64,000 nucleotides of DNA from Hallella seregens ATCC 51272 (lineage in GTDB: Bacteria > Bacteroidota > Bacteroidia > Bacteroidales > Bacteroidaceae). Position 1 is the stretch's first letter; each line of letters opens with the position of its first letter. The DNA lies in assembly GCF_000518545.1 (NCBI RefSeq), contig NZ_JADU01000001.1, forward strand, positions 1-64,000, written 5' to 3'. A model generated the notes under the pieces. The model was not told where the DNA came from and did no database searches. It saw nothing but the letters and a program-made list of their open reading frames with translations. Positions 1,536 to 60,292 of this stretch are shown here, piece by piece. The position numbers and the translations under genes were made by a program.

Positions 1536-2468
1536 GTGTTTAAACGCTTTTGGATTATAATACTCTTGGTAGCAGCATCCTCACAGAGGATGTGGGCGCA
1601 GTATGACCCGTCTTTCAGTCATTATTTTGACATGGAGACTTCTTATAATCCCGCAGCGGCTGGCAAGCAGCCGAAGCTCAACGCCACCTTTGCTTACGCT
1701 CTCGATCTGGCCGGTTTTGAGCATAATCCGCAAACAGCTTATGCTTCAGCCGACATGCCCCTTTATGCCTTGAAGACGTATCACGGCGTGGGACTACAGT
1801 TCATGAATGACAAGCTGGGTCTCTTCACCCATCAAAAACTTGCCTTACAGTATGCGTTGAAGTTCAAGTTGATGGGTGGACAGATGAGCGTGGGGCTACA
1901 GGCCGGCATGCTCAATGAGAGTTTTGATGCGAACAAACTCGATGTAGAAGACTCCAGTGACCCCGCTTTCTCCACGGCATCGGGCAACTCGCTTGATTTG
2001 AGTGCCGGATTGTATTACACACACAAGGCCTGGTATGCCGGTGTCTCCGTGTTGCATGCCAACGCCCCTCTCGTGCATCTTGGCGAGACCAACCAGTTGC
2101 AGATCGACCGTACTTATTATTTAACAGGGGGATACAATATAAAGTTGCGCAACCCGTTTCTAACAATAAAGCCTTCGTTTCTGGTGCAAACGGACCTTGT
2201 GGTCTATCGTGCGAATGTCAACGCCCGGCTGATCTACACCAATGGAGACAGGGTGATGTATGGTGGTGTGGGTTACAGCCCCACCAATTCCGTCACCGTG
2301 ATGGTGGGTGGCAGTTTCCACGGTATCATGCTGGGCTACAGTTACGAGGCCTATACCTCGGGCATCAATCCGGGCAACGGCAGTCACGAGCTTTTCGTGG
2401 GCTACCAACACGACATCAATTTAACGAAGAAAGGCCGCAACCTGCACAAGAGCGTCCGCATCTTATAG
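1536..2468 (+). CDS. porP: Type IX secretion outer membrane protein PorP/SprF family
   Basis: A 310-residue protein with a signal peptide (about residues 1-21, ending MWA before QYDPSF). The start QYDPSFSHYFDMETSYNPAAAG is the typical PorP/SprF opening, followed by alternating amphipathic strands of an outer-membrane beta-barrel. In the type IX system PorP-like proteins sit in the outer membrane and are thought to link secreted substrates to the PorK/N ring. It is first in the porP-porK-porL-porM-porN cluster, the usual gene order, which supports PorP rather than a stray SprF paralogue. No clear TAnnTTTG box lies between the upstream terminator and the ATG, so the operon promoter is not located. 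Length is normal for the family. Confidence 0.93.
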   Translation: MFKRFWIIILLVAASSQRMWAQYDPSFSHYFDMETSYNPAAAGKQPKLNATFAYALDLAGFEHNPQTAYASADMPLYALKTYHGVGLQFMNDKLGLFTHQKLALQYALKFKLMGGQMSVGLQAGMLNESFDANKLDVEDSSDPAFSTASGNSLDLSAGLYYTHKAWYAGVSVLHANAPLVHLGETNQLQIDRTYYLTGGYNIKLRNPFLTIKPSFLVQTDLVVYRANVNARLIYTNGDRVMYGGVGYSPTNSVTVMVGGSFHGIMLGYSYEAYTSGINPGNGSHELFVGYQHDINLTKKGRNLHKSVRIL

Positions 2469-2516
2469 GCTTTTGTGCAGAAGAATGCGGGAGCGAAGCA
2501 AAGACAGAAAATTGAA

Positions 2517-3983
2517 ATGACGAACCTTTCAAGCTATATGGGAAAGAAAACTATTGTGGCCCTCTGCCTGGCCGCCGTCGCAACGACGCTGACAGGCTGT
2601 TTCAGTGCCAAGTCGGCCTCTGCCTCCGGTCGAGGCGGCGAAGTGGTGGGCGTGAGTGGCAAAACCTTTACCGAACCCACACCTTACGGCATGACCCGCA
2701 TCAATCGCGGCTATCTGAAGATGGGTCTGCAAGGACAGGACAGCCTTTGGGGCAAGAAGACTCCCGTGAAAGACATCTCCGTGGACGGTTTCTGGATGGA
2801 TGAAACCGAAGTGACCAATTCACAATACAAGCAGTTTGTGATGTGGGTGCGCGACAGTATCCTGCGTACCCGGCTGGCCGATCCCTCTTACGGCGGCGAC
2901 GAGTCGTACATGATTACCGAAGACAAGCATGGCGATCCTGTGAAGCCTCACCTCAACTGGAACAAGCGTTTGCCCCGCAAGCCCACCGAGGACGAGCAGC
3001 GCGCCATCGAAAGCCTCTATGTCACTAATCCCGTGACAGGCGAAAAACTCCTTGACTACAGCCAGATGAACTACCGATACGAGGTGTACGACTACGTGAC
3101 GGCTGCACTGCGCCGCAACCGTCTCAACCCCGAGGAGCGCAATCTCAATACCGATATGGCAGCCGATCCCGATGAGACAGTCATGATTAGCAAGGACACC
3201 GCCTATATCGACGATAACGGACGCATTGTCAGCGAGACCATCAACCGCCCCCTGTCCGGCCCGTGGGACTTTCTCAATACGTACATTGTCAACATCTATC
3301 CCGACACCACATGTTGGGTTAACGATTTCCAAAACTCGGAAAACGAGACCTATCTTCGCAACTACTTCACCAATCCAGCCTACAACGACTATCCTGTCGT
3401 GGGCGTTACTTGGGAACAGGCCAACGCGTTCTGTGCCTGGCGCACCGATTATCTGCTGAAAGGACTGGGAGCCGAAGCCCGTTACATTCAGCGTTACCGA
3501 CTGCCCACCGAGGCAGAGTGGGAGTATGCCGCCCGTGGCAAAGACCAGACGGAGTTCCCGTGGGAGAATGCCGACGTGGCCAATGGCAATGGTTGCTTCT
3601 ATGCCAACTTCAAGCCAGACCGCGGCAATTACACCAAGGACGGCAACCTCATTTCCAGTAAGGTGGCCAGCTATTCGCCCAACACCAACGGCCTCTACGA
3701 CATGGCCGGCAACGTGGCCGAGTGGACGAGTACCATCTATACCGAGGCGGGCGTCGATGCCATGAACGATCTCAACCCCCAGTTGGACTACAAAGCAGCC
3801 CGCGAAGACCCCTACAAGCTCAAGAAGAAGAGCGTTCGCGGAGGCTCTTGGAAAGACCCCGAGAGCTACATCCGCTCGGCTTGGCGCACGTGGGAGTATC
3901 AGAACCAGCCCCGTTCTTACATCGGATTCCGCTGTGTGCGCTCGCTGGCCAACTCCATCACCAGTAAACAGAAAAAGAGATAA
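2517..3983 (+). CDS. porK: Type IX secretion lipoprotein PorK/GldK
   Basis: A 488-residue lipoprotein with a lipobox LTGC (Cys at residue 28 from this start). The mature part is a formylglycine-generating-enzyme-like (FGE/sulfatase-modifying) fold: DGFWMDETEVTNSQY, PVVGVTWEQANAFCAWR, RLPTEAEWEYAARG, GLYDMAGNVAEWTS, VRGGSWKD and GFRCVRS in order. PorK with PorN forms the periplasmic ring attached to the outer membrane. Three starts are possible: GTG 2475, ATG 2517 and ATG 2538. I chose 2517; 2538 would give a compact signal peptide (MGKKTIVALCLAAV...) and is almost as likely. It starts about 50 bp after porP and is followed after 5 bp by porL. Confidence 0.94.
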   Translation: MTNLSSYMGKKTIVALCLAAVATTLTGCFSAKSASASGRGGEVVGVSGKTFTEPTPYGMTRINRGYLKMGLQGQDSLWGKKTPVKDISVDGFWMDETEVTNSQYKQFVMWVRDSILRTRLADPSYGGDESYMITEDKHGDPVKPHLNWNKRLPRKPTEDEQRAIESLYVTNPVTGEKLLDYSQMNYRYEVYDYVTAALRRNRLNPEERNLNTDMAADPDETVMISKDTAYIDDNGRIVSETINRPLSGPWDFLNTYIVNIYPDTTCWVNDFQNSENETYLRNYFTNPAYNDYPVVGVTWEQANAFCAWRTDYLLKGLGAEARYIQRYRLPTEAEWEYAARGKDQTEFPWENADVANGNGCFYANFKPDRGNYTKDGNLISSKVASYSPNTNGLYDMAGNVAEWTSTIYTEAGVDAMNDLNPQLDYKAAREDPYKLKKKSVRGGSWKDPESYIRSAWRTWEYQNQPRSYIGFRCVRSLANSITSKQKKR

Positions 3984-3988
3984 CCATC

Positions 3989-4873
3989 ATGTCAAATTAT
4001 AGCAAGTACAATCTGGTGTACCGTCTGCAGAAGTGGATGGACACCGTTGCCGGCCAAACTTTCCTCAACTATGCCTATAGCTGGGGTGCTTCGGTCGTGA
4101 TTCTGGGTGCATTGTTCAAGCTCACGCATCTGGCCGGGGCCAATATCATGCTCTTCCTTGGCATGGGCACAGAGGTGTTGGTGTTCTTCATCTCTGCTTT
4201 CGACCGTCCTTTCGACAAGACGGCCGACGGGCGCGAGATGCCCACTCGCGTCACGGAGGAGTTCCTGGCCAGTGGCATCGTCTCTTATGGCAAGGGCGAA
4301 ACGCCCGCTGCTCCCGACGAACAGCCCGCCCCTGCCGCAGTGGCCGTGCAGGTTGCCCAGCCTGTCGGTTCCGTACAGACGGCTGCACCTGCCTCGTCCG
4401 GAGCTGCCGCCCAGCCCAACTACGTGCCCCGGATGTCGGCCGAGGAGGCTGCCGTCCAGCCCAACTACGTGCCCCAGATGTCGGCCGAAGAGGCTGCCGC
4501 CCAGCCCAACTACGTGCCCCAGATGTCGGCCGAAGAGGCTACCGCCCTCAACGAGGCCCAGGGCAACTACGTCGACGAGCTCAAGGAATTGGTGGAAACG
4601 CTGAAGAAAGTCAATGAGCAGAGTGCCCGACTCACGCGCGACAGCGAGGAGATGGAGAACCTTAACCGCACGCTTACCGGCATCAGCAAGGTCTACGAGA
4701 TGCAGCTTAAAGGAGCCAGCCAGCAGATAGGAACCATCGACCAGATTAACGACCAGACCCGCAAGATGGCCCAGCAGATAGAGCAACTCAACCAGATCTA
4801 TGCCCGCATGATAGAGGCCATGACGGTGAACATGCACGTGGCGGCTCCCGGTGCCGCCCACACGGACGAATAA
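3989..4873 (+). CDS. porL: Type IX secretion inner membrane protein PorL/GldL
   Basis: A 294-residue inner-membrane protein. Two hydrophobic helices (about residues 29-50 and 53-70) with the conserved KWMDT...GASVVILGALFKLTH and MGTEVLVFF segments identify GldL/PorL, the stator-like part of the proton-driven PorL-PorM motor. An Ala/Pro-rich linker follows (about 105-140), then three copies of a 15-residue unit QPNYVPxMSAEEAxx (residues 142-186), then a coiled-coil-like cytoplasmic region (about 190-285). The triplicated linker is unusual and is listed separately. The conserved intramembrane acidic residue is probably E62 in MGTEVLVFF. It is tightly packed with porK and porM. Confidence 0.94.
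   Translation: MSNYSKYNLVYRLQKWMDTVAGQTFLNYAYSWGASVVILGALFKLTHLAGANIMLFLGMGTEVLVFFISAFDRPFDKTADGREMPTRVTEEFLASGIVSYGKGETPAAPDEQPAPAAVAVQVAQPVGSVQTAAPASSGAAAQPNYVPRMSAEEAAVQPNYVPQMSAEEAAAQPNYVPQMSAEEATALNEAQGNYVDELKELVETLKKVNEQSARLTRDSEEMENLNRTLTGISKVYEMQLKGASQQIGTIDQINDQTRKMAQQIEQLNQIYARMIEAMTVNMHVAAPGAAHTDE
4412..4546 (+). repeat. Three in-frame 45-bp repeats inside porL
   Basis: Three adjacent 45-bp units encode QPNYVPRMSAEEAAV, QPNYVPQMSAEEAAA and QPNYVPQMSAEEATA. The DNA copies are nearly identical, pointing to recent duplication or ongoing homogenisation. The unit length keeps the frame. Confidence 0.92.
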
Positions 4874-4885
4874 ACGACAGACGAC

Positions 4886-6442
4886 ATGGCAATCAAGAAA
4901 AGACCGGTCAGCCCTCGCCAGAAGATGATCAACCTGATGTACATCGTCTTACTGGCCATGCTTGCACTGAACATCTCCACCGAGGTGCTCAACGGCTTTG
5001 CCGTGGTCGAGGAGAGTCTGAACCGCACAACGAATAATGCCTCGTCGGAGAACGAAGCGCTCTACGGCGACTTCAAGGACCAAATGGCCGCCAACCCTGC
5101 CAAGGTGCGGGCTTGGTTTGAGAAGGCCACCGCCGTGAAGGCCATGAGCGATTCGCTCTTCAATTTCGCCCAGGAACTGAAGGTGGCTATCGTCAGGGAG
5201 GCCGATGGTGCCGACGCCGACGTACACAACATTGAAAACATCGACAATGTCGATGCCGCCGGCACGGTGATGCTGGCTCCCGTCACTGGGCGGGGTGGCA
5301 GGCTCTACCGGGCCATCAACAGCTATCGTGAGCGCATTCTGCAATACATCACCGACCCCGAGCAGCGTCGTATCATCAGCAGCAACCTCTCTACCGCAGT
5401 TCCCCGTAAGGCCAACACGCTGGGCAAGAACTGGCAGGAGTACATGTTCGAGAATATGCCGGTGGCTGCCGCCGTCACCTTGCTGTCCAAATTGCAGAAT
5501 GATGTGCGCCATGCCGAGGGCGACGTGCTCCATACACTCGTCTCCAACATCGACCTCAAAGACATTCGTGTGAACAAACTTTCGGCCTTTGTTGTGCCCG
5601 AGAAGACTACCCTTTATCCTGGCGAGCGCTTTACAGCCAACATTGTCATGGCAGCCATCGACACCACCAAGCAGCCCGAAATCTATGTCAACGGCTCGCG
5701 GGTGAACACCGCAGCAGGGCAGTACAGCTTCACAGCCGGCGGCGTGGGCGACCATCAGTTCGGCGGTTACATCCTCATGCGCAATGCCAACGGCGACGTG
5801 CTGCGCCGCGACTTCCTGCAGAAATACAGTGTCATTCCCGTACCCGGTGGCGCCACCGTGGCTGCCGACCTCATGAATGTGCTCTATGCGGGATACCGCA
5901 ATCCCATCAGCGTCAGTGTGCCGGGCGTGCCCCAGAATGCCGTTTCGGTATCAATGTCGGGCGGAAGCCTCTCTGCAGCCGGTGCCGGCCGCTACGTGGC
6001 GGTGCCCTCGGCCGTGGGCCACGACGTCACATTCCACGTTTCTGCCCGCGACGGCGGCAAGCTGCGGTCGTTCCCGCCGTTCACGTTCAAGGTGCGCCGG
6101 CTGCCCGATCCCACGCCCTACATAGCGTTGGGCACCGACCGTTTCAAGGGCGGCAGTCTCGCCAAGGCCAGTCTCATGGGTGCCTCGACGCTCAGCGCGG
6201 CCATCGACGACGGCATCCTCGACATACAGTTCCAGGTCAGTAGCTTCTCCGCCGTGTTCTACGACAACATGGGCAATGCCGTGCAAATGGCCTCGTCGGG
6301 CGCTGGTTTCACCGACCGCATGCGGGAGCAGTTCCGTCGGCTCTCCCATGGCCGCCGGTTCTACATCACCGAGGTGAAGGCCGTGGGCCCCGACGGCATC
6401 AGCCGTACACTGCCTGGTGCGATGGAGGTGAAAGTGAAGTAG
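4886..6442 (+). CDS. porM: Type IX secretion motor protein PorM/GldM
   Basis: A 518-residue protein with a conserved cytoplasmic start (MAIKKRPVSPRQKMINLMY), one transmembrane helix (about residues 15-36, IVLLAMLALNIS with the following STEVLNGF) and a long periplasmic part. GldM/PorM dimers cross the periplasm from the PorL stator to the PorK/N ring and transmit rotation or torque. The sequence NLMYIVLLAMLALNIS is a hallmark of the family, and length is normal. It lies 12 bp after porL and 72 bp before the chosen porN start, clearly in one operon. Confidence 0.95.
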   Translation: MAIKKRPVSPRQKMINLMYIVLLAMLALNISTEVLNGFAVVEESLNRTTNNASSENEALYGDFKDQMAANPAKVRAWFEKATAVKAMSDSLFNFAQELKVAIVREADGADADVHNIENIDNVDAAGTVMLAPVTGRGGRLYRAINSYRERILQYITDPEQRRIISSNLSTAVPRKANTLGKNWQEYMFENMPVAAAVTLLSKLQNDVRHAEGDVLHTLVSNIDLKDIRVNKLSAFVVPEKTTLYPGERFTANIVMAAIDTTKQPEIYVNGSRVNTAAGQYSFTAGGVGDHQFGGYILMRNANGDVLRRDFLQKYSVIPVPGGATVAADLMNVLYAGYRNPISVSVPGVPQNAVSVSMSGGSLSAAGAGRYVAVPSAVGHDVTFHVSARDGGKLRSFPPFTFKVRRLPDPTPYIALGTDRFKGGSLAKASLMGASTLSAAIDDGILDIQFQVSSFSAVFYDNMGNAVQMASSGAGFTDRMREQFRRLSHGRRFYITEVKAVGPDGISRTLPGAMEVKVK

Positions 6443-6514
6443 GGAGTGCCCGCTCCCCGGCAGACGGGAAGAGGGCCACGGAGTCAAACCATGATAGAAG
6501 AATTTAGAAACAAC

Positions 6515-7561
6515 ATGAAGAGAATATTTTTGATGCTTCTTGCCGTCGGCCTTGCGCTGGCTGCCACGGCGCAGCCCAAGGCCCGGCGCGAGCAGCAGCA
6601 GGCAACCGCCCAGAAGTCGAACAGGGACAACATGACCCTGCGCGCCCAGATTTCGTTCCCCACCGAGGCCCGGATGAGCGAAGACGTGGTGTGGAGGCGC
6701 GACGTCTACCGCGAACTCAGCCTCAACGACGATGCCAATGCCGGCCTTTACTATCCCGTGGAGCCGCTGGGCACGCAGATGAACCTGTTCACCTATATGT
6801 TCAAGCTCATCATGGCCGGGCCGCGCCACGGTGGCATTGCGGCCTACAGCTACGACGTGAACACGGGCAACGAGCGGTTCGATGAGTCGCTGCGCGTGAG
6901 TCCGCTGAAGTTCCTCGACGACTATCACGTCTATTACGAGCGCACCGACCGCGGCGTGCACATCGACGACAGCGACATTCCCTCGGCGCAAGTCAAGGGC
7001 TACTTCATCAAGGAGAGCACTTACTACGACCAGGCCACAGCCACTTTCCATACCAAGGTGCAGGCGCTCTGCCCCGTGATGTATCGTGAAGACGACTTTG
7101 GCGACGGCGTCACCAAGTATCCCTTGTTTTGGGTGCGCTATGCCGACCTGGCTCCTTTCCTTTCCAAGCAGACCATCATGACGAGCAACCTCAACAATGC
7201 CGCCACGATGAGCATCGACGACTACTTCACCATGAATGCCTACAAGGGCAAAATCTACAAGACCACCAACATGCTCGGCCAGACGCTGGCCCAGGTGGCC
7301 GGTAGCGACAGCGTGAAGCTCTCGCGTGAGCAGCAGCGCATCGAGCGCGAGATTGCGGCTTTCGAGAAAGGCATCTGGGGTGACCAGGCCCGCAAGGACT
7401 CGCTCGACTCCATCGCACGGCTCACGCCCCGCGACCTCAAGGCCATGAAGAAAGGCCGCCGCACCTCAACCGCCAAGACCGTCAAGCCCCGTACCCGTCG
7501 GGGCGGCACGCCGTCGGGTAGCAGCAATGCCCGCGTCACCGTACGTCGGCAGCGGCATTAA
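6515..7561 (+). CDS. porN: Type IX secretion ring protein PorN/GldN
   Basis: A 348-residue periplasmic protein from the ATG that opens a good signal peptide (MKRIFLMLLAVGLALAATAQ). Upstream in-frame starts at 6446 and 6491 would add 8-23 residues before the signal and are less likely. Typical GldN segments are present: DVVWRRDVYRELSLNDDANAGLYYPVEP near the N-terminus and VRYADLAPFLSKQ in the middle. PorN associates with PorK in the 50-nm ring of the type IX machine. The C-terminus (about 310-348) is unusually basic and Arg/Ser/Thr-rich. It is last of the five core por genes; the next ORF follows after 35 bp. Confidence 0.93.
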   Translation: MKRIFLMLLAVGLALAATAQPKARREQQQATAQKSNRDNMTLRAQISFPTEARMSEDVVWRRDVYRELSLNDDANAGLYYPVEPLGTQMNLFTYMFKLIMAGPRHGGIAAYSYDVNTGNERFDESLRVSPLKFLDDYHVYYERTDRGVHIDDSDIPSAQVKGYFIKESTYYDQATATFHTKVQALCPVMYREDDFGDGVTKYPLFWVRYADLAPFLSKQTIMTSNLNNAATMSIDDYFTMNAYKGKIYKTTNMLGQTLAQVAGSDSVKLSREQQRIEREIAAFEKGIWGDQARKDSLDSIARLTPRDLKAMKKGRRTSTAKTVKPRTRRGGTPSGSSNARVTVRRQRH

Positions 7562-19188: not shown

Positions 19189-20418
19189 ATGTATCAGGTT
19201 TTCATCTGTCTCTATACGTTTGGCGTATGGGTGGCCAGCCTGTTCAGCCGAAAAGTGCGAAAGATGTGGAGGGGCGAACACGAGGCTTTCCGTATCTTGC
19301 AGCAGCGTGTTGACCCGCAGGCGCGATATGTATGGTTCCATGCTGCCTCGCTCGGCGAGTTCGAGCAGGGCCGTCCGCTCATCGAGCAAATTCGTCGGGA
19401 GCATCCGGAGTACAAGGTGTTGCTCACTTTCTTCTCGCCATCGGGCTACGAAGTGCGCAAGAATTACGAGGCGGCCGACATCTGTTGCTACCTGCCGCTC
19501 GACACCGTAGCCAATGCCCGCCGCTTCCTGCGGCTGGTGCGCCCGGAGATGGCTTTCTTTATCAAGTACGAGTTTTGGTACAACTATCTGCACATCCTGC
19601 GTCATCGTGGCGTGCCCGTCTATAGCGTGTCGAGCATATTCCGGCCCGACCAGATATTCTTTCGCTGGTATGGCCGCCGTTATGGCCGGGTGCTTCACTG
19701 CTTTACCCATTTCTTCGTGCAGAATGAGGAGAGCCGCGTGCTGCTCCACAAGATAGGCATTGACGAGGTTACGGTGGTCGGGGACACGCGCTTCGACCGT
19801 GTCCTGCAAATCAAGGAGGCCAGCAAGCGGCTGCCGATGGTCGAGGCTTTCGTAGGCAAGGACACCCCCATGGTGTTTGTGGCGGGGTCGTCGTGGCCGC
19901 CCGACGAGGAGATATTCATAGATTACTTCAATGCTCACCGAGACTGGAAGCTCATCATTGCTCCCCATGTGATAGGCGAAGACCACCTTCGGCAGATTCT
20001 GGCGCGGTTCAACGGCAAGGCCGTGCGCTACTCGGAAGCCACGGAAGTGGATGTGCATGAGGCCGACTGCCTGATTATCGACTGCTTCGGCCTGTTGTCG
20101 AGCATCTATCATTATGGCAGCGTGTCGTATGTGGGTGGCGGTTTCGGCGTGGGTATTCACAATGTGTTGGAGGCCGCCGTATGGGGTATTCCCGTGATTT
20201 TCGGGCCCAACAACAAACATTTCCAGGAGGCCCAGGACCTGATTCGGACGGGTGGAGGCTTTGAGATACAGGGTGGGGACGACTTTGTTAGGTTGATGAA
20301 TCGGTTTGACGCCGATGCCGGTAGTCTGCAGCGTAGCGGCGAGGCGGCCGGTGAGTTTGTCAAGAGCAGGGCCGGTGCTACGTCTGGAGTGCTCTCGCAC
20401 ATTGCTGCATTGCGCTGA
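19189..20418 (+). CDS. waaA: 3-deoxy-D-manno-octulosonic acid (Kdo) transferase
   Basis: A 409-residue membrane-anchored glycosyltransferase that moves Kdo from CMP-Kdo to lipid A precursor at the inner leaflet of the inner membrane. Seen: an N-terminal hydrophobic anchor (MYQVFICLYTFGVWVASLFS), WFHAASLGEFEQGRPLIEQIR (the conserved acidic residue region), TFFSPSGYEV, and in the C-terminal GT-B half SYVGGGFGVGIHNVLEAAVWGIPVIFGP. These are typical KdtA motifs. The ATG at 19189, one base behind the gltX stop, is preferred to an in-frame start overlapping gltX because it opens directly at the anchor. It ends before a 22-bp hairpin that separates it from the converging lyase gene. Confidence 0.95.
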   Translation: MYQVFICLYTFGVWVASLFSRKVRKMWRGEHEAFRILQQRVDPQARYVWFHAASLGEFEQGRPLIEQIRREHPEYKVLLTFFSPSGYEVRKNYEAADICCYLPLDTVANARRFLRLVRPEMAFFIKYEFWYNYLHILRHRGVPVYSVSSIFRPDQIFFRWYGRRYGRVLHCFTHFFVQNEESRVLLHKIGIDEVTVVGDTRFDRVLQIKEASKRLPMVEAFVGKDTPMVFVAGSSWPPDEEIFIDYFNAHRDWKLIIAPHVIGEDHLRQILARFNGKAVRYSEATEVDVHEADCLIIDCFGLLSSIYHYGSVSYVGGGFGVGIHNVLEAAVWGIPVIFGPNNKHFQEAQDLIRTGGGFEIQGGDDFVRLMNRFDADAGSLQRSGEAAGEFVKSRAGATSGVLSHIAALR

Positions 20419-53879: not shown

Positions 53880-55925
53880 ATGAGAAAGATTTACATGAAA
53901 AGTCTGCTCGTGGCTGCGGGCCTGATGCTAAGCGCTTCGTCGTTTGCCCAAACGGTGCTTCTGGATTATGGCACACCCACGGGCACTGCACTTGAGACCG
54001 AGGCATGGACAACCAGCGAGGGCAGCACGCTCACGGCCGAAGAGGTTGGGGCCATCAGCAGCTCGGACGGTTTGGAGACCTGGGCCGAGGAGGGCAAGGC
54101 CATCAAGTACACCTCTCCCAAAAACGGCAGTGGCTCTTCCACCGTGACCATTGCGCCTACGGCCAATTCCATCCTGACGTTCGAGGCCGTGTGGGCTCCT
54201 GGAGCTTCGACAGGCCGCTCGGGCAACAGGAACTTCCTGCAGCTGGGCGACGTCAAGATTGAGTCGCGCGGCCAGGATAAGGCCGCGTACATTGCTCTTG
54301 GCGATGACGGCGTTGCGGCCAACCTCACCAAGCTGCCCCACCTGTCTGCGGAGACCCGCTCCAACTACTGGTGGAAAGTGAACGTCACCGTCAATCAAGC
54401 CACGGGAGCCATCGACTATGCCATTGCGTCCACGTCGGGCAAGTCGGATGCCGGCACGCTCAGCAAGCCCGACGGCAGCTATACCGTGGTGGGCATCGGC
54501 TTTACGCGTGGCGGCCGCACGGTTACGAGCAGCAATTCGCTGCGTAGCATCTTGGTGAGCGAGCGGACGCAGAGCGTCACGACCGTGAACTATACCATCA
54601 ACTACAACTACAATGGCGCCACGCTGAACCATGTGGACGGCACTGCCGCCGTTGGAGCAACGGTGACGGCCGAGAATCCCGTGGTGATAGGCGAGCAGAA
54701 ATATTATGCCGTCGACGATGCCGCTACCTCTTTGGTGCTGGCCGAGGGCGAGAACGTGCTGAACGTGGAGCTCCGTCTGCCCAAAGTTTCTCCCTACGTT
54801 GTCAAGAACAGCTTTGGCGACATCATAGCATCGGGCAGCTATACCGAGGGCGACGATGCCGTCACCGTGGCCTGGAGCAAGTATGTGCAGCACGACGGCG
54901 AGTGGTACGCATGCGACGAAACGAGCTACAGCATGGCGGTTTCGGGCGAGGTGGACAAGACCGTGGCTTATTCGGAAAAGGCAGACATCGCATGCTTTGT
55001 GGAGAGCTCTGCCCTGACATGGTCGGCCGGAGCTCCCGTGGCCACCCTGAACGACGCCAAGTATTCTGCGGGCTCTGCCGCCCGTCTGGGAGCCCATTCC
55101 TATTGCTGCACACCGGCATTTGAGTCGGCGGGCGTGTACAGCCTGGCCGTGCCCTACATGAACCAGAACTCCACGGACGGCACCATCCAGATTTGCACGC
55201 GTGATGCCGAGGGCAACCTTTCCGAAACGGGTCTGAGCCTCGTGGGGGCTGCGCGCAGCAGCGGCGTGATGACCGCCGAGGGCATCGTCATTCCTGCCGG
55301 CTGCTCCTTGGTGCTGAACAACACGACGGAGTACAACTCCAATGTCTATATGGACTATGTGGTCCTGGCCAAGACGCCCGCTCCCACGGTCGCCATTCCT
55401 GCCGCTTCCAAGCTCGCTTCCTACAGCAATGCCCAGGCAGTGACCGTTCCTGAGGACGTGACCATTTACATCGCCACGGCCATCGGCGAGAACAGCGTGA
55501 CGCTGGTCAAGGTCGAGGGCAAGGTGGTTCCGGCCAACACGGGTGTGATTCTATACAGTGCCGAGGCTGGCGAGAAGACGCTGGCCTTTGGTGGCGAGGC
55601 CGTGGCCGATTTCTCGGCCAACCAACTCAAGGCCACGGCTGCCGTTGCCGTCAAGGCTTCGGGTGCCGAGTACGCCCTCGTCAAGGGTGAGCAGAGCTTT
55701 GCCAAGGTGGCCGCCGATGTGGAGATTCCCGCCAACAAGGCCTACATCGCTGCTGCGGCCGGTGCCAAGCTGACCGTTGACTTTGGCCAGACCACGGGCC
55801 TCGACAAGGTACAGGCCAAGGCGCATGCCGGCGAAGAGTCTGTCTACAACCTCTCCGGCCAACAGGTGGATTCCGCCTACAAGGGCATCGTCATCAAGGG
55901 CGGCAAGAAGTTCATCGTGAAGTAA
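53880..55925 (+). CDS. Large secreted protein with Prevotella-type C-terminal tail
   Basis: A 681-residue protein with a signal peptide (MRKIYMKSLLVAAGLMLSASSFAQ). The mature part is beta-rich, with repeats of TVNYTINYNYNGATLN-type segments (a MucBP/InlB-like beta-strand pattern, about 235-265) and a C-terminal Ig-like region (about 500-640; VTVPEDVTIYIATAIGENSVTLVKVEGKVVPANTGVILY). The end SVYNLSGQQV...GIVIKGGKKFIVK resembles the short sorting-type tail of type IX cargo in Prevotella. It is thus probably exported by the Por machine; this is inference. It is followed after 47 bp by a small MKKxYIxP protein. No enzymatic motif is recognised. Confidence 0.85.
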   Translation: MRKIYMKSLLVAAGLMLSASSFAQTVLLDYGTPTGTALETEAWTTSEGSTLTAEEVGAISSSDGLETWAEEGKAIKYTSPKNGSGSSTVTIAPTANSILTFEAVWAPGASTGRSGNRNFLQLGDVKIESRGQDKAAYIALGDDGVAANLTKLPHLSAETRSNYWWKVNVTVNQATGAIDYAIASTSGKSDAGTLSKPDGSYTVVGIGFTRGGRTVTSSNSLRSILVSERTQSVTTVNYTINYNYNGATLNHVDGTAAVGATVTAENPVVIGEQKYYAVDDAATSLVLAEGENVLNVELRLPKVSPYVVKNSFGDIIASGSYTEGDDAVTVAWSKYVQHDGEWYACDETSYSMAVSGEVDKTVAYSEKADIACFVESSALTWSAGAPVATLNDAKYSAGSAARLGAHSYCCTPAFESAGVYSLAVPYMNQNSTDGTIQICTRDAEGNLSETGLSLVGAARSSGVMTAEGIVIPAGCSLVLNNTTEYNSNVYMDYVVLAKTPAPTVAIPAASKLASYSNAQAVTVPEDVTIYIATAIGENSVTLVKVEGKVVPANTGVILYSAEAGEKTLAFGGEAVADFSANQLKATAAVAVKASGAEYALVKGEQSFAKVAADVEIPANKAYIAAAAGAKLTVDFGQTTGLDKVQAKAHAGEESVYNLSGQQVDSAYKGIVIKGGKKFIVK

Positions 55926-55972
55926 GCCCGTTGCAAACCGAACATTTATTCATCATTAAACCATACAGAGCA

Positions 55973-56167
55973 ATGAAAAAGTCATATATCAGTCCCCGTA
56001 TCAGCGTGAAAGAGATGGCCGCCGAGCAGTCCATGCTCGCCGCCTCGTTCGACCCCGGCCAGCCGTCTTCGCAGGTGAATGTCAGCTCCACCCCTATCTC
56101 CACTCCCGGTGGTGTCGGCGCCAAGCCTTCCAGCATTTGGGGCGATGAGTCCGAGGAGGACGAATAG
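55973..56167 (+). CDS. Small acidic MKKxYIxP protein (first copy)
   Basis: A 64-residue protein starting MKKSYISPRISVKEMAAEQ and ending GAKPSSIWGDESEEDE. It has no signal peptide by composition; the middle is Ser/Pro/Gly-rich and the tail acidic. It shares with the 60,023-60,220 protein the start MKK-Y-I-P, an S-T-P stretch (SSTP/VSTP) and a C-terminal AKxxS...W(G)D motif. Similar short proteins are, from memory, common in Bacteroidetes without known function. It follows the large secreted protein gene by 47 bp and is closed by a 21-bp hairpin. ATG 55973 is preferred; an upstream in-frame extension of 14 residues begins at a non-canonical start. Confidence 0.78.
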   Translation: MKKSYISPRISVKEMAAEQSMLAASFDPGQPSSQVNVSSTPISTPGGVGAKPSSIWGDESEEDE

Positions 56168-56188
56168 TCCCGCCGGGCCTTATACTCA

Positions 56189-56240
56189 AACGATGACGCG
56201 TCGAAAGTCCCATTGTAGTGACTTTCGACGCGTCATCGTT
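56189..56240. terminator. 21-bp perfect hairpin after the small-protein gene
   Basis: Arms 56189-56209 and 56220-56240 pair perfectly over 21 bp around a 10-nt loop. No T tract follows, so it may stabilise the mRNA end or act as a Rho-linked or factor-dependent stop. Confidence 0.7.
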
Positions 56241-56305
56241 ATCTCTGTGACTGCAAGATTTTTTTCATTAAATAGGGTTAAGCATAGTTAAAGCGATGTC
56301 CCTGC

Positions 56306-56336
56306 TTTGCCGTATGCGACTTTTTTCCTACTTTTG
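56306..56336 (+). promoter_or_regulatory. Promoter of the BspA-like gene
   Basis: TTTG at 56306-56309, a 19-bp spacer and TACTTTTG at 56329-56336 match the consensus exactly. It implies a 5' leader of about 340 nt before the ATG at 56684. Confidence 0.82.
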
Positions 56337-56342
56337 CACCCA

Positions 56343-56683
56343 AATTATCAATTATTCAAATCTGTAGTCAGTGTTAGTTAATATGAGACATCGGGCCCTT
56401 TTCCCTGTTGTGCAAAAATCTTTGAAAGATTTTACACCTTTTAACGGTGAATGTTTGGCGGGTTCGGATATTTTCTTAACACACACACACACACACACAC
56501 ACACAACTCTCTCTCAACTAGTCTTTCTGAGGCGCGGGCTTTCGTTGCACTTCTTAGGGCTTTCGTTGCGGTATTCTGAGCACCCACCAGTGTTCAGGAA
56601 GGGAATCGTTGTGTGTCGTTTGATGAAAATGTAGGAGCAATCAATCATAGAAACAAGTAATAATAATGTAAGTACAAAAAGAG
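56343..56683 (+). promoter_or_regulatory. Long leader with palindrome, AC microsatellite and small ORF
   Basis: The leader holds, in order, a 19-nt palindrome AAAATCTTTgAAAGATTTT (56415-56433), a microsatellite of 13 AC units (56479-56504) followed by CT repeats, and a direct repeat GGGCTTTCGTTGC (56536-56548 and 56557-56569). A small ORF from ATG 56383 runs through the AC tract as an HTHTHT stretch and ends at 56634; changes in AC number would shift it. Nothing else is seen in this 516-bp gap apart from the upstream hairpin and promoter. Confidence 0.6.
56479..56504 (+). repeat. (AC)13 microsatellite
   Basis: Thirteen uninterrupted AC dinucleotides lie inside the transcribed leader of the BspA-like gene. 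Such tracts tend to change length by replication slippage. Confidence 0.95.
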
Positions 56684-59600
56684 ATGAAACACACCAAACA
56701 CTTTCTCTTGCTGTTGGTTTTCATGGCGACAGCGACATGCGCTTTCGCTCAGGCCGTGGGTTCCGGTTTCACAGTGAACGAAATCGTGTACACCATTACC
56801 AACAACGACTTGGTACACCACACGGACAACCGGGTGGCCGTCAGCTATATTGGCGGTTCGGGTGCCGTGACAGTTCCCTCAACGGTCAAGCATCCGCAGA
56901 GCGACGAAACCTATAAGGTTACTGAGTCGGTGGGCTGGACCGACTGTAGCAAGACCATTACCAGCCTGACCTTTTCGGAGGGCTACGAGAAGATGGGCAA
57001 CGGCTGCTACCGCTTTGCCGACGGCGTGACCAAAGTGATCCTCCCGAAAAGCTTCAAGGAGATAGGACACAGCTGCTTTGAAAACTGCCCGGCATTTACG
57101 AGATATGAGGTGAAGAGCGGCAACAACGACTTTACCCACAACTCCAAGGGCTGGCTTCTTAGCAAGAACCAGAAGACGCTGGTGTCGTTCCCCTCGGGTA
57201 TTGCGGGCGACGTGGACATCGACGAGGGCATCACCACACTTGCCACGACTGCTTTCAAGGTGTGCCGCAAGGTGAACAAGGTGAAGCTCCCTAAATCACT
57301 CACCACGATAGACGAATCGATGAATGCCTCGTTCTATGCCGTGGGAAGTAGCTTCGAGGTGCATTCCGGCAACCAGGCTTTTAAGGCTGTTAATGGCGTG
57401 CTCTGCTCAAGAGACGGGAAAAGGCTCATCGCTTTCCCGCCCCGCTATGACAAGAATAAGCTCTCGAACGGCAAGTACACCCTGCCAACTGCCGTCGAGC
57501 AAGTGGGAAGTCAGGCTTTCTGCCAGACCGAGGATTATCTCAAGACAGTGGATCTGATGAATGCCAAGACCATCAAGGAAGAAGCTTTCAACTGGACCAA
57601 TGGCTTGGAATCGGTGCATATCGGCCGCCAAGTCAATAATATAGTGCCCGGTGCGTTCCTGTACTGCAGCAAGCTGGTGAAGTTTACAGTGTCTGGTAAC
57701 AATGGCACCTACAGCGCGCAGGACGACATGATCTATTCCAAGAACAAAACGAAGCTTGTAGTCTGTCCTACGGGCAAGAGAGGAGAATATACCATTCATA
57801 ATGGAACAGTCTCTGTAGAAAATAAGGCTTTCTATGGATCAAAACTCACGAAGATAACCTTTCCATCTTCCTTAAAGTCGGTGGGCAGAGAAAGTTTCCG
57901 CTTCAGTCAGATTGCTGCCATTGATTTCGGCACAAACCCTGGGCTTGAAACCATCATGAATTCGGCTTTCTCGGGGTCAAAACTCGCGGGCACCATCACC
58001 ATTCCTGCCAGTGTAAAGGATATGCAAGGCCGTGTGTTCTACGACACGAAAATAGCCCACATTCGCATTGCCAGCAGCTCCAAGCTGGAGAAGATCGAAC
58101 AGCTGGGCTTCGATGGGATGCCCGAACTGAAGACTTTTGTCTTCCAAGGCACCAACAGCGTGAAGAGTATCGGCGAGAATGCCTTTGCCGACGATCCCAA
58201 GTTGGAGAGTTTTGAGATTCCATCTGGCGTGACAGACATTTACAAAGGAGCTTTCGTGAACACGCCCGCCCTGAAGACCGTTACCTTTAAACAGCCTGCC
58301 AGCATCAAGGTTATCGGCGAGGGCGCATTCGGCAACAGCGGCATCACGGCCATCACGCTGCCCGCCAGTGTGACCACCATCAAGAAACAGGCTTTCGACA
58401 ACTGCAAGGAGCTGCAGACAATCACTATTCCCAAGAATGTGACCAAGATTGAAACGGGTGCCTTCAACTTCACAGAGAAGATGAAAAAGTTCGAGGTGGA
58501 TGCCGCCAACACCAAGTATTCTGCCGTGGACGGCATACTCTGTTCCAATAACAAGGACACGCTCGTGACCTTCCCTGCCGGCAAGGCCGACTCCAGATAC
58601 ACTTCGCTGCCTTATTTCAAGGCTATCGGACCGTATGCTTTCTACAGCAGCAAGAAAATCACCAACGTGACCATTCCGCGCAGTGTGACCGAGATCAAGA
58701 CCCGTGCCTTTGCCCTGTGCGACAACCTGACGTCGCTCAGCTTCATGGGTACCGATAATGTGCCCACGCTCACGGCAGGTATTCTATTCAGTTCACCCGA
58801 CCCCAAGAAAGTGACCATCTACGTGCGCAAGAAGTGGTATGAGGCTTCGCCCAACGAAGCTACGGTGCGCAATTACCGTAACACCTTCAAGGAGGTGCAT
58901 CCCTCGTTTGTCAGTGCCAAGGGCTATGACCGCGGCGTGGAATTCTTCCCCACGTCGGACGGGGCCGTGGGTGTAGTGAGCTTCTATACGCCGCGTACCT
59001 CGGCCATCATCGGCACCCGCGCTACAGAGACGGCTTATAAAGATAAATTTGGCGTACAATGGCCAACGAAGACCTACGAGGTGGCCGCCGTACTCGACCA
59101 TGCTTTCGAGGCTTCGACCCCTAATGTGAAGATGATTACCGTGCTGGCCGACATCAACAACCTCGGTCTGGATGCTTTTAAAGCCCCCACGCTGAAAGAA
59201 CTCTACTTCGTGGGAGACGTGCCCGCCCCGCTGAGCTCCACCATTTATAACCTCCCGGCCAATTATCCGTTCAACAACAACGTCGACCTGAAAGTGTATG
59301 TCAAGCAGTCGAAGCTCCAAGACTATAAAACAGCATGGAACGTGAGCGGCCACACGCTGAGCTTGGGCTGGCAGATTCCGGCCAAGACACTGGGCAAGCG
59401 GGCCTCGGCCTGCTATCCGTTTGACGTAGTGTACAACACGGTTGCCGATCTGAAGCCCTACCTGACGTTGAAGCTGGACGAAAATCTGACGCAGAGTCAC
59501 CTGCACGACGGCACGGCCTATGTGTGGTCGCGCAGCGTGGACGACTTTACAGTGCCCGCCTATCAGCCGGTGCTGTTGGTGAGCAAGGGCACCACCAGTG

Positions 59601-60010
59601 TGACCTCTTGGTGCCAGATGAAAGAGGTGCAAGACCATCCAGCCATCGACAAGACGGGTTACACCGATTACATGCTGGGTACCGTAGAAGATACGGAGCT
59701 GAAGAATGAGGGCGGCTACACGCTGTTCGGATTGTCCAAGTCGGGCGTGTTCAAAAAGGTTGCTACTGCCGGCAACCATGTGACGTGGTTCAAGGCCTAT
59801 CTGAAGATAGCCAATTCGGCTATCCCGGCTGGTGCCAAGAGCATCGTTTTCCTGATGGAGGGCGAGTGTTTGCCCACGGGCATCGACGGGCCAACGACGG
59901 CCGAAGCAGCCGACGGCGACGCAGCTTATTACAACCTGAACGGTGCGCATGTGGAGCAGCCGCAGCGTGGCATCTACATTCGCAACGGCAGGAAAATAGT
60001 TATCAAGTAA
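56684..60010 (+). CDS. BspA-like leucine-rich repeat surface protein
   Basis: A 1108-residue exported protein with a signal peptide (MKHTKHFLLLLVFMATATCAFAQ). From about residue 80 to 720 it is a chain of LRR_5 (BspA/Treponema-type) repeats of roughly 23 residues: TSLTFSEGYEKMGNGCYRF, VTLPKSxxxIGxxxFxxC-type units such as VTIPRSVTEIKTRAFALC. A non-repeat region follows (about 740-1050), and the end YYNLNGAHV...GIYIRNGRKIVIK is the Prevotella short C-terminal tail of probable type IX cargo. BspA-type proteins mediate adherence to host proteins and other bacteria. Its leader carries a slippage-prone AC tract. A small acidic protein gene follows after 12 bp. Confidence 0.88.
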   Translation: MKHTKHFLLLLVFMATATCAFAQAVGSGFTVNEIVYTITNNDLVHHTDNRVAVSYIGGSGAVTVPSTVKHPQSDETYKVTESVGWTDCSKTITSLTFSEGYEKMGNGCYRFADGVTKVILPKSFKEIGHSCFENCPAFTRYEVKSGNNDFTHNSKGWLLSKNQKTLVSFPSGIAGDVDIDEGITTLATTAFKVCRKVNKVKLPKSLTTIDESMNASFYAVGSSFEVHSGNQAFKAVNGVLCSRDGKRLIAFPPRYDKNKLSNGKYTLPTAVEQVGSQAFCQTEDYLKTVDLMNAKTIKEEAFNWTNGLESVHIGRQVNNIVPGAFLYCSKLVKFTVSGNNGTYSAQDDMIYSKNKTKLVVCPTGKRGEYTIHNGTVSVENKAFYGSKLTKITFPSSLKSVGRESFRFSQIAAIDFGTNPGLETIMNSAFSGSKLAGTITIPASVKDMQGRVFYDTKIAHIRIASSSKLEKIEQLGFDGMPELKTFVFQGTNSVKSIGENAFADDPKLESFEIPSGVTDIYKGAFVNTPALKTVTFKQPASIKVIGEGAFGNSGITAITLPASVTTIKKQAFDNCKELQTITIPKNVTKIETGAFNFTEKMKKFEVDAANTKYSAVDGILCSNNKDTLVTFPAGKADSRYTSLPYFKAIGPYAFYSSKKITNVTIPRSVTEIKTRAFALCDNLTSLSFMGTDNVPTLTAGILFSSPDPKKVTIYVRKKWYEASPNEATVRNYRNTFKEVHPSFVSAKGYDRGVEFFPTSDGAVGVVSFYTPRTSAIIGTRATETAYKDKFGVQWPTKTYEVAAVLDHAFEASTPNVKMITVLADINNLGLDAFKAPTLKELYFVGDVPAPLSSTIYNLPANYPFNNNVDLKVYVKQSKLQDYKTAWNVSGHTLSLGWQIPAKTLGKRASACYPFDVVYNTVADLKPYLTLKLDENLTQSHLHDGTAYVWSRSVDDFTVPAYQPVLLVSKGTTSVTSWCQMKEVQDHPAIDKTGYTDYMLGTVEDTELKNEGGYTLFGLSKSGVFKKVATAGNHVTWFKAYLKIANSAIPAGAKSIVFLMEGECLPTGIDGPTTAEAADGDAAYYNLNGAHVEQPQRGIYIRNGRKIVIK

Positions 60011-60022
60011 ACAAGTACAGAC

Positions 60023-60220
60023 ATGAAAAAGCAATATATACAGCCTCTGGCCGAGATAATCTGCGTGGATTATGAAGAGGGCGTGATGGATTGGGTGAGC
60101 ACTCCCGTGACGGACGACGAGATTAGCGACGACGACTTCAACGCCAAGCGTGGCTCATTCGATCGTTGGGATGACGGTGGCTTCTTCCTCCCAGCCAACT
60201 ATAATCCTTGGGAGGATTAG
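60023..60220 (+). CDS. Small acidic MKKxYIxP protein (second copy)
   Basis: A 65-residue protein starting MKKQYIQPLAEIICVDYEE and ending NAKRGSFDRWDDGGFF..., strongly acidic with a Trp-rich tail. It shares MKK-Y-I-P, VSTP and AKxxS..WxD with the small protein at 55,973. The two otherwise differ, so they are distant relatives, not a recent copy. It lies 12 bp behind the BspA-like gene, tightly enough for translational coupling, and is closed by a terminator. Function unknown; possibilities include a secreted peptide, a chaperone for the partner protein, or a tail/anchor-related factor. Confidence 0.8.
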   Translation: MKKQYIQPLAEIICVDYEEGVMDWVSTPVTDDEISDDDFNAKRGSFDRWDDGGFFLPANYNPWED

Positions 60221-60240
60221 GAGTTACTTATAGAACATGA

Positions 60241-60292
60241 CAAGGGCTGCACCCTGCGCGCCAAGCGCAGCCATGCAGCCCTTGTTGTTTTT
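60241..60292 (+). terminator. Nested hairpin terminator
   Basis: CAAGGGCTGCA (60241-60251) pairs with TGCAGCCCTTG (60274-60284); inside, CTGCG pairs with CGCAG. TTGTTTTT follows on the plus strand. It separates the small-protein gene from the converging GH35 gene. Confidence 0.85.

Follow-up and report, generated by a model that had tools for sequence, protein, structure and literature searches.

Two genes for short acidic proteins, P1 and P2, are located in a 64,000-nucleotide stretch of the Hallella seregens ATCC 51272 genome (contig NZ_JADU01000001.1, positions 1 to 64,000; hereafter the window), each directly behind a gene for a large exported protein with a short C-terminal tail (cargo A and cargo B). 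We propose, with a probability of about 0.6, that P1 and P2 are precursors of a ribosomal peptide pathway resembling that of the linear polyphosphorylated peptides (LPP), and that they are served by enzymes encoded on another contig of the same genome (C16). This link between the precursors and the C16 operon is drawn from four lines of evidence, namely the leader form of the small proteins, the single recognition element (RRE) for ribosomally synthesized and post-translationally modified peptides (RiPPs) in the genome, relatives that are borne within the enzyme cluster, and co-occurrence. The pairing of small proteins with tail-bearing proteins is real and general, and the small proteins are conserved and under constraint.

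The first pair comprises cargo A (53880–55925, forward strand, as all window features given here), a 681-aa protein with a signal peptide recognized by eye and with no Pfam or NCBIfam family above cut-off, and P1 (55973–56167), a putative precursor peptide of 64 aa that follows after 47 bp. Residues 1–25 of P1 are leader-like (YISP ... MLAAS), and its acidic C-terminal part contains IWGDESEEDE. Directly 3′ of P1 there is a perfect inverted repeat with 21-nt arms (56189–56240), which likely represents the end of the cargo A–P1 transcript. The second pair consists of cargo B (56684–60010), an exported 1108-aa protein of the BspA-type leucine-rich-repeat kind (LRR_5, 1.8e-80), and P2 (60023–60220), a putative precursor peptide of 65 aa that starts with MKKQYIQP, has an acidic end with W and follows after 12 bp. 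An inverted repeat with 12-nt arms and a subsequent T-rich stretch (60240–60285) is present 3′ of P2 and is likely a terminator. The same search (at least 10 nt) revealed no inverted repeat between cargo A and P1 or between cargo B and P2. The tails of cargo A (YNLSGQQVDSAYKGIVIKGGKKFIVK, 55845–55922) and cargo B (YNLNGAHVEQPQRGIYIRNGRKIVIK, 59930–60007) matched the tail profile with E-values of 4.5e-13 and 3.6e-14, respectively, both tails being among the 12 rows of that profile. Neither P1 nor P2 matched any Pfam or NCBIfam family at E up to 1. The coordinates and the layout of the first-pass annotation (two pairs with gaps of 12–47 bp) were re-found. Of the end motifs that it had reported as shared, the MKKxYIxP start, STP and an acidic W-containing end are present in both proteins, whereas the exact spacing AK-x-x-S-x-x-W-x-D fits neither of them, S and W being separated by one residue in P1 and by three in P2. 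An (AC)13.5 repeat is found approximately 180 bp 5′ of cargo B (56479–56505); such dinucleotide repeats can render expression phase-variable.

Within the genome of the window, a strict start pattern for the small proteins gave 4 matches versus 0 for a reversed-pattern control, and a looser pattern gave 13 versus 6. Seven of the looser-pattern matches mark the start of complete frames of 35–110 aa, six of which follow a tail; the seventh (L015) has no tail and looks spurious. For the tails, a small profile was used, because a regular expression missed obvious ones. It identified 45 short tails at E 0.01 in the 3.27 Mb genome. When the tail profile was combined with the start pattern for the best 30 of the 45, 11 were followed by a short YxxP open reading frame (ORF), and one could not be assessed. 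Six of these 11 precursors start with MK[KR]xYxxP and five with variants such as MKKYIKP, MKTYQKP or MIRKTYMTP. The tail 5′ of one of the six is in a 49-codon frame, so that the frame of this cargo seems to be interrupted shortly before it (L338; G000:C2:155855-155953). Behind the best tails, three further YxxP frames, which start with GTG or TTG, were judged to be spurious (L345, L350, L363).

In named genomes, at least 120 stretches match MKKTYIxP, that is, the start of the small ORF alone. By their titles, 60 of the 80 loci listed belong to Prevotella, Prevotellaceae, Paraprevotella or Bacteroidaceae, and 11 more to Bacteroidales only. After removal of 11 of the 80 (five from other phyla, six truncated, open or of the wrong length), a tail of more than 15 bits precedes 59 of the 69 assessable small ORFs among the matches listed, with one weak tail score among the ten misses. 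Such a tail occurs in 4 of 649 genes from 41 loci fetched around RRE matches, a base rate that is low for Prevotella because genomes without full PorV are included. Among these listed matches, the small ORFs thus adjoin tail-bearing genes above chance, which is the association that the first-pass annotation had suggested to look for. In total, 104 different tail-linked proteins with a median length of 58 aa were compared. Their genes follow the cargo gene with a median gap of 33 bp, and five overlap it by 4 bases. A perfect hairpin of at least 10 bp occurs within 130 bases 3′ of 49 out of 102 tail-linked ORFs, compared to 7 in the 130 bases before the ORF, 1 in the first 130 bases inside it and 0 in base-shuffled downstream sequence. 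The small ORF thus often closes the unit of its cargo.

Some matches were discarded. A recurring MKKRY[LF]xP start with PSVQPA-like text (many genomes, e.g., L065, L107, L112 and L114) looks like antisense noise mimicking the start motif; these matches were flagged and are still inside the raw start-pattern counts. One match is the start of an RRE gene itself (L296), and two MKKEYESP matches open 171-aa proteins (L381, L382). In G027, two tandem MKKxYLSP proteins of 70–72 aa have another end (SQFDILDS..NQMENPF) and no upstream tail (L089), and these possibly constitute another precursor branch.

In the 104 tail-linked proteins, positions 1–8 are fixed or biased by the search pattern, YxxP included. 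Outside of it, a Ser is found within positions 23–26 in 90 proteins (mean of 32 and maximum of 44 in shuffles), which is 18 to 21 residues past the Tyr, most commonly at Y+19 (56) and then at Y+20 (30). L or I occupies position 21 in 79 of the 104, and positions 12, 13, 15 and 20–22, none of which is part of the search pattern, are mostly hydrophobic. Towards the other end, a W is present within the last 25 residues of 86 proteins (mean of 56 and maximum of 67 in shuffles), and the mean charge after residue 26 is −6.1. The constraint near both ends that had been proposed from P1 and P2 alone is hence borne out, whereas STP and AKxxS as shared marks are incidental, since each occurs in 4 of the 104 relatives. 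No Sec signal was seen by eye in the small proteins. The ratio of nonsynonymous to synonymous substitution rates is between 0.02 and 0.55 in nine of ten pairs of orthologues and paralogues, four of which are overlapping pairs from one genome (G082), and is 1.30 on few changes in the tenth; the small ORF evolves as a coding sequence. AlphaFold2 modeling of P1 with 34 aligned sequences gave predicted local distance difference test scores of 89 for residues 1–10, 83 for residues 11–20 and 54–62 beyond. Judged from these sequences, the start of the small proteins has the form of a RiPP leader, with YxxP, hydrophobic positions and a Ser 18–21 residues past the Tyr.

The genome of the window has a single PqqD-type (RRE) match at E up to 1 (5.7e-12). 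Its gene lies outside the window, at about 19,889-20,176 on the minus strand of contig C16 (G000), as the last gene of an operon in the order small exported protein, HprK-like kinase, peptidase and RRE. The small exported protein (L241, 11669-12127) has no significant family match. The kinase carries an invariant SGTGKST, and the peptidase carries the motifs GxSM...HR...GDG (GDGN in the window's genome), of which GxSM, HR and GD are invariant. Kinase searches against NCBIfam gave ScmC (2.5e-5) and HprK_rel_A (2.2e-4), both under cut-off, and the closest PDB match of the peptidase profile is SEC11A (0.008). By motif and weak profile matches, the two enzymes thus appear to be an HprK-like kinase and a peptidase like signal peptidase I (SpI) of the archaeal/endoplasmic reticulum (ER) type. 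The best PDB matches of the RRE profile are TfuB1 (4.2e-8) and TbiB1 (4e-5), both lasso B1 proteins, followed by PbaB1 (7.2e-5) and LppB (0.006). An RRE-binding leader form together with one RRE/kinase/peptidase operon in the genome fits well with the suggestion of the first-pass annotation that the conserved ends are recognized by some machinery.

The RRE was found in 40, the kinase in 39 and the peptidase in 35 of the 41 loci fetched around RRE matches, on which the profiles had themselves been iterated. Among 49 loci, the architecture of exported protein, kinase, peptidase and RRE occurs in 24 (L241 included), kinase, peptidase, RRE and ABC exporter in 8, and an NTP (nucleoside triphosphate) transferase in 8, the other nine being of another kind or partial. 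The small exported protein heads the operon in 24 of the 49 loci, and none was seen in the 8 with an ABC exporter behind the RRE. In 4 of ten loci of other architecture, i.e., with the NTP transferase or another gene order, the cluster itself contains a short ORF that combines YxxP, h..S and an acidic W-containing end (L294, L295, L314, L391). All four are polysaccharide-type loci in which the ORF, the RRE and the kinase are on one strand, and L294 combines RRE, NTP_transf_5, kinase, precursor, peptidase and ABC exporter. The filter for these cluster-borne precursors, applied to 45 of the 49 loci (L296, L309, L310 and L311 are in no group), passed no ORF in 35 loci of other kinds, including the 24 loci with the architecture of the window's genome, or in reversed DNA. 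It misses two tail-linked precursors that are located in the loci to which it was applied (L329, L383), and similar ORFs in L313, L395 and L396 fail it. Since the filter was written after these ORFs were known, it is a control on chance and not an independent test. A full type IX system was defined as PorV at E<1e-100, a threshold of our own that 59 of 80 genomes pass, with 65 of 80 passing the cut-off of the PorV family. The genomes of L294, L295, L314 and L391 are without full PorV, and that of L396 (G029) has it.

In the comparison of genomes, those with full PorV hold more start-pattern matches (p 1.8e-5). Within this group the mean count is 4.27 with the operon (n=52) versus 1.57 without it (n=7; p 0.005), a difference that rests on raw counts with artefacts included, and in the PorV-negative genomes it is 1.24 (n=21). 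Several points speak against the assignment of the small proteins to the C16 operon, and the limits of this comparison are among them. PqqD was found in 72 of the 80 genomes of the family, all of which are at least 93% complete, and because it is nearly universal the co-occurrence tests are limited. Genomes were called operon-positive by PqqD; of the 52, 33 also show the kinase and 19 show PqqD alone, and two of the seven operon-negative genomes (G007, G085) have a weak PqqD and no kinase match. One genome that is 94% complete (G067) has no RRE or kinase match, yet it has five precursors, all of them tail-linked; the operon may be missing from its assembly, or else the precursors and the operon are wrongly linked here. 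With regard to the enzymes, the RRE is nearer to lasso B1 proteins than to LppB, the S24 match of the peptidase is weak (0.015), and the kinase is above no curated cut-off, its PDB matches being led by ABC-type P-loops (0.007) ahead of HPr kinases (0.22 and 0.76). Neither an MsbA-like ABC exporter nor an NTP transferase, both LPP core genes, was found beside the operon of the window's genome, where an ABC match was discounted as a 945-aa UvrA-like protein (L241). The Ser is mostly at Y+19/20 here and at Y+18 in LPP. As for the pairing, the tail linkage is lower in other samples: after removal of 19 of 96 candidates for length or incompleteness, a tail precedes 4 of 15 complete short ORFs in a sample of one locus per genome from 30 genera, 11 of 20 in a genus sample, where three of the nine misses are the antisense artefact, and 23 of 35 ORFs in 40 chosen regions.

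It might be that the small proteins are cargo-specific partners, i.e., chaperones, inhibitors or escorts, with no tie to the RRE operon. The strict pairing, the short gaps and the shared units would agree with such a role, as would the pairs of G067 without a detected operon. However, the tail-bearing cargos are diverse (LRR_5, F5/8, BNR, and fn3 with MAM; one of five scanned has no family match), whereas the small proteins share one start, and some of the ORFs adjoin lipoprotein-like genes or are located in enzyme clusters. In addition, a protein lacking a Sec signal would have no contact with an exported cargo outside the cytoplasm unless it is exported in another way, and we consider this explanation to be unlikely. 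That they are lasso peptide precursors, with YxxP as the lasso leader motif, is suggested by this motif and by the closeness of the RRE to lasso B1 proteins. However, the lasso B2 peptidase family PF13471 has no match in the genome of the window at E up to 1, an asparagine-synthetase-like cyclase was not seen in the operon (it was not searched for genome-wide), and the C-terminal part is long, acidic and of low predicted order, which makes a lasso product very improbable.

The small proteins could also belong to the type IX system itself, for instance as a signal or regulator in the cytoplasm that couples cargo synthesis to the motor. The type IX genes porP, porK, porL, porM and porN are located in the same window (1536–7561). 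In favor of such a role, genomes with full PorV are richer in start-pattern matches, and most of the assessable named loci listed follow tail genes. On the other hand, G110, a near-complete genome of the same genus with no full PorV match (L377-L379, L332), keeps the operon and three small ORFs, each of which adjoins a lipoprotein-like gene as judged by eye, one neighbor being fimbrillin-like by Pfam. In Bacteroides-like relatives, ORFs of this type are found within the enzyme cluster, and 18 of the best 30 tails in the window's genome have no small ORF. Cargos A and B have no match at E up to 1 to PF18962 or TIGR04183, which represent the type A C-terminal domain of type IX cargos. The seven PF18962 places in that genome (two above the curated cut-off) are all distinct from the 45 short tails, and none of them is followed by a small YxxP ORF. 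A role in type IX export, for which the first-pass annotation had pointed to the core genes in the same window, is thus unsupported, and this explanation seems improbable to us. From their form, the short tails are presumed to be type IX signals, in which case PF18962-based cargo counts would be too low for this genome. Small ORFs are also found behind a fimbrillin-like gene (PF13149, L145), following a lipoprotein-like gene (L124, where a tail-bearing gene is present two genes upstream), and in front of a lipoprotein-like gene with fn3 domains (L195). The common partner may therefore be a surface protein, with short-tailed proteins as its most frequent form among the samples studied.

According to the proposed LPP-like pathway, the first ~25 residues, with Y-x-x-P, the hydrophobic positions and a Ser ~20 residues past the Tyr, would be a leader that is bound by the PqqD-type RRE of C16. 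The RRE would present the precursor to the HprK-like kinase, which would phosphorylate the conserved Ser, and to the archaeal/ER-type signal-peptidase-like protease, which would cut near this Ser and release a linear, acidic, W-containing core. In the window's genome, at least 11 precursors would depend on a single enzyme set. Since each precursor gene is located behind its own tail-bearing gene and usually ends the unit, the peptide would be made together with its own presumed surface protein, with which it probably acts at the cell surface. Leader binding, phosphorylation, cleavage, export and any surface role are inferred here from sequence. A more far-reaching and doubtful possibility is that the Prevotella-like pathway constitutes a general surface tailoring system, in which one enzyme set supplies a different phosphopeptide for each of many surface proteins, and this peptide attaches to or matures the secreted protein encoded with it. 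If this were true, RiPP products would work with particular secreted proteins and lipoproteins rather than as free natural products.

With this proposal, a class of small proteins that lack annotation and occur in many rumen Prevotella-like genomes receives a role that can be tested. RiPP precursors are usually encoded beside their enzymes, which would not be the case here, and mining in the neighborhood of the enzymes would therefore miss them. A literature search in titles and the starts of abstracts (few subscription papers, preprints outside the scope) yielded nothing that joins RiPP leader recognition with secreted surface proteins. RiPP mining in Bacteroidales reports GG-leader and transporter systems, with lasso or PqqD only in the references and a glossary line of the available text (PMC10352776). 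A rumen collection study lists 153 RRE-based clusters, the Prevotella share of which is not stated in the accessible part of the article, so that the operon may already have been listed in this way (PMC13289728). The main texts of PMC12710340 and PMC7470986 contain no occurrence of "Bacteroid" or "Prevotella", and the accessible part of a type IX review has no mention matching chaperone, adjacent or partner (PMC10202324).

In type B type IX cargos, a PorP/SprF gene is located beside the cargo gene. In both arrangements the cargo gene has a partner gene linked to it, but the partner there is an outer-membrane protein and here a short acidic protein without a signal peptide. With lasso systems of the paeninodin group, the small proteins and the C16 operon share a YxxP leader, a discrete RRE and an HprK-like kinase. 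As far as described in the available text of PMC13381572, that group has a YxxP/WxxP leader, a discrete RRE and an HprK-like kinase, and discrete RREs bind lasso leaders at the motif [Y/W]xxPx[L/V/I/F/A]. The same text describes LPP as linear polyphosphorylated peptides of Bacillota, to which they are said to be restricted, with the precursor motif YxxPxVLxHQxIxFETxxS; LppK phosphorylates S3 of the core and the signal-peptidase-like LppS removes the leader (PMC13381572). The discrete PqqD-type RRE, the HprK-like kinase and the SpI-like peptidase correspond to three LPP core genes, and precursors of 35–200 aa with a YxxP leader, a conserved Ser and a variable C-terminus are common to both (PMC13381572, accessible part). 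In Bacteroides-like relatives, NTP_transf_5 and an ABC exporter are present as well, in the polysaccharide locus L294. In contrast, HQ and FET of the LPP consensus are not conserved in the 104 small proteins, and the operon of the window's genome is without exporter and NTP transferase and starts with a small exported protein. Unlike LPP precursors, those of the Prevotella-like genomes are scattered, with many per genome and each behind a surface-protein gene. If the assignment is correct, an LPP-like pathway, described so far for Bacillota only, would extend to another phylum.

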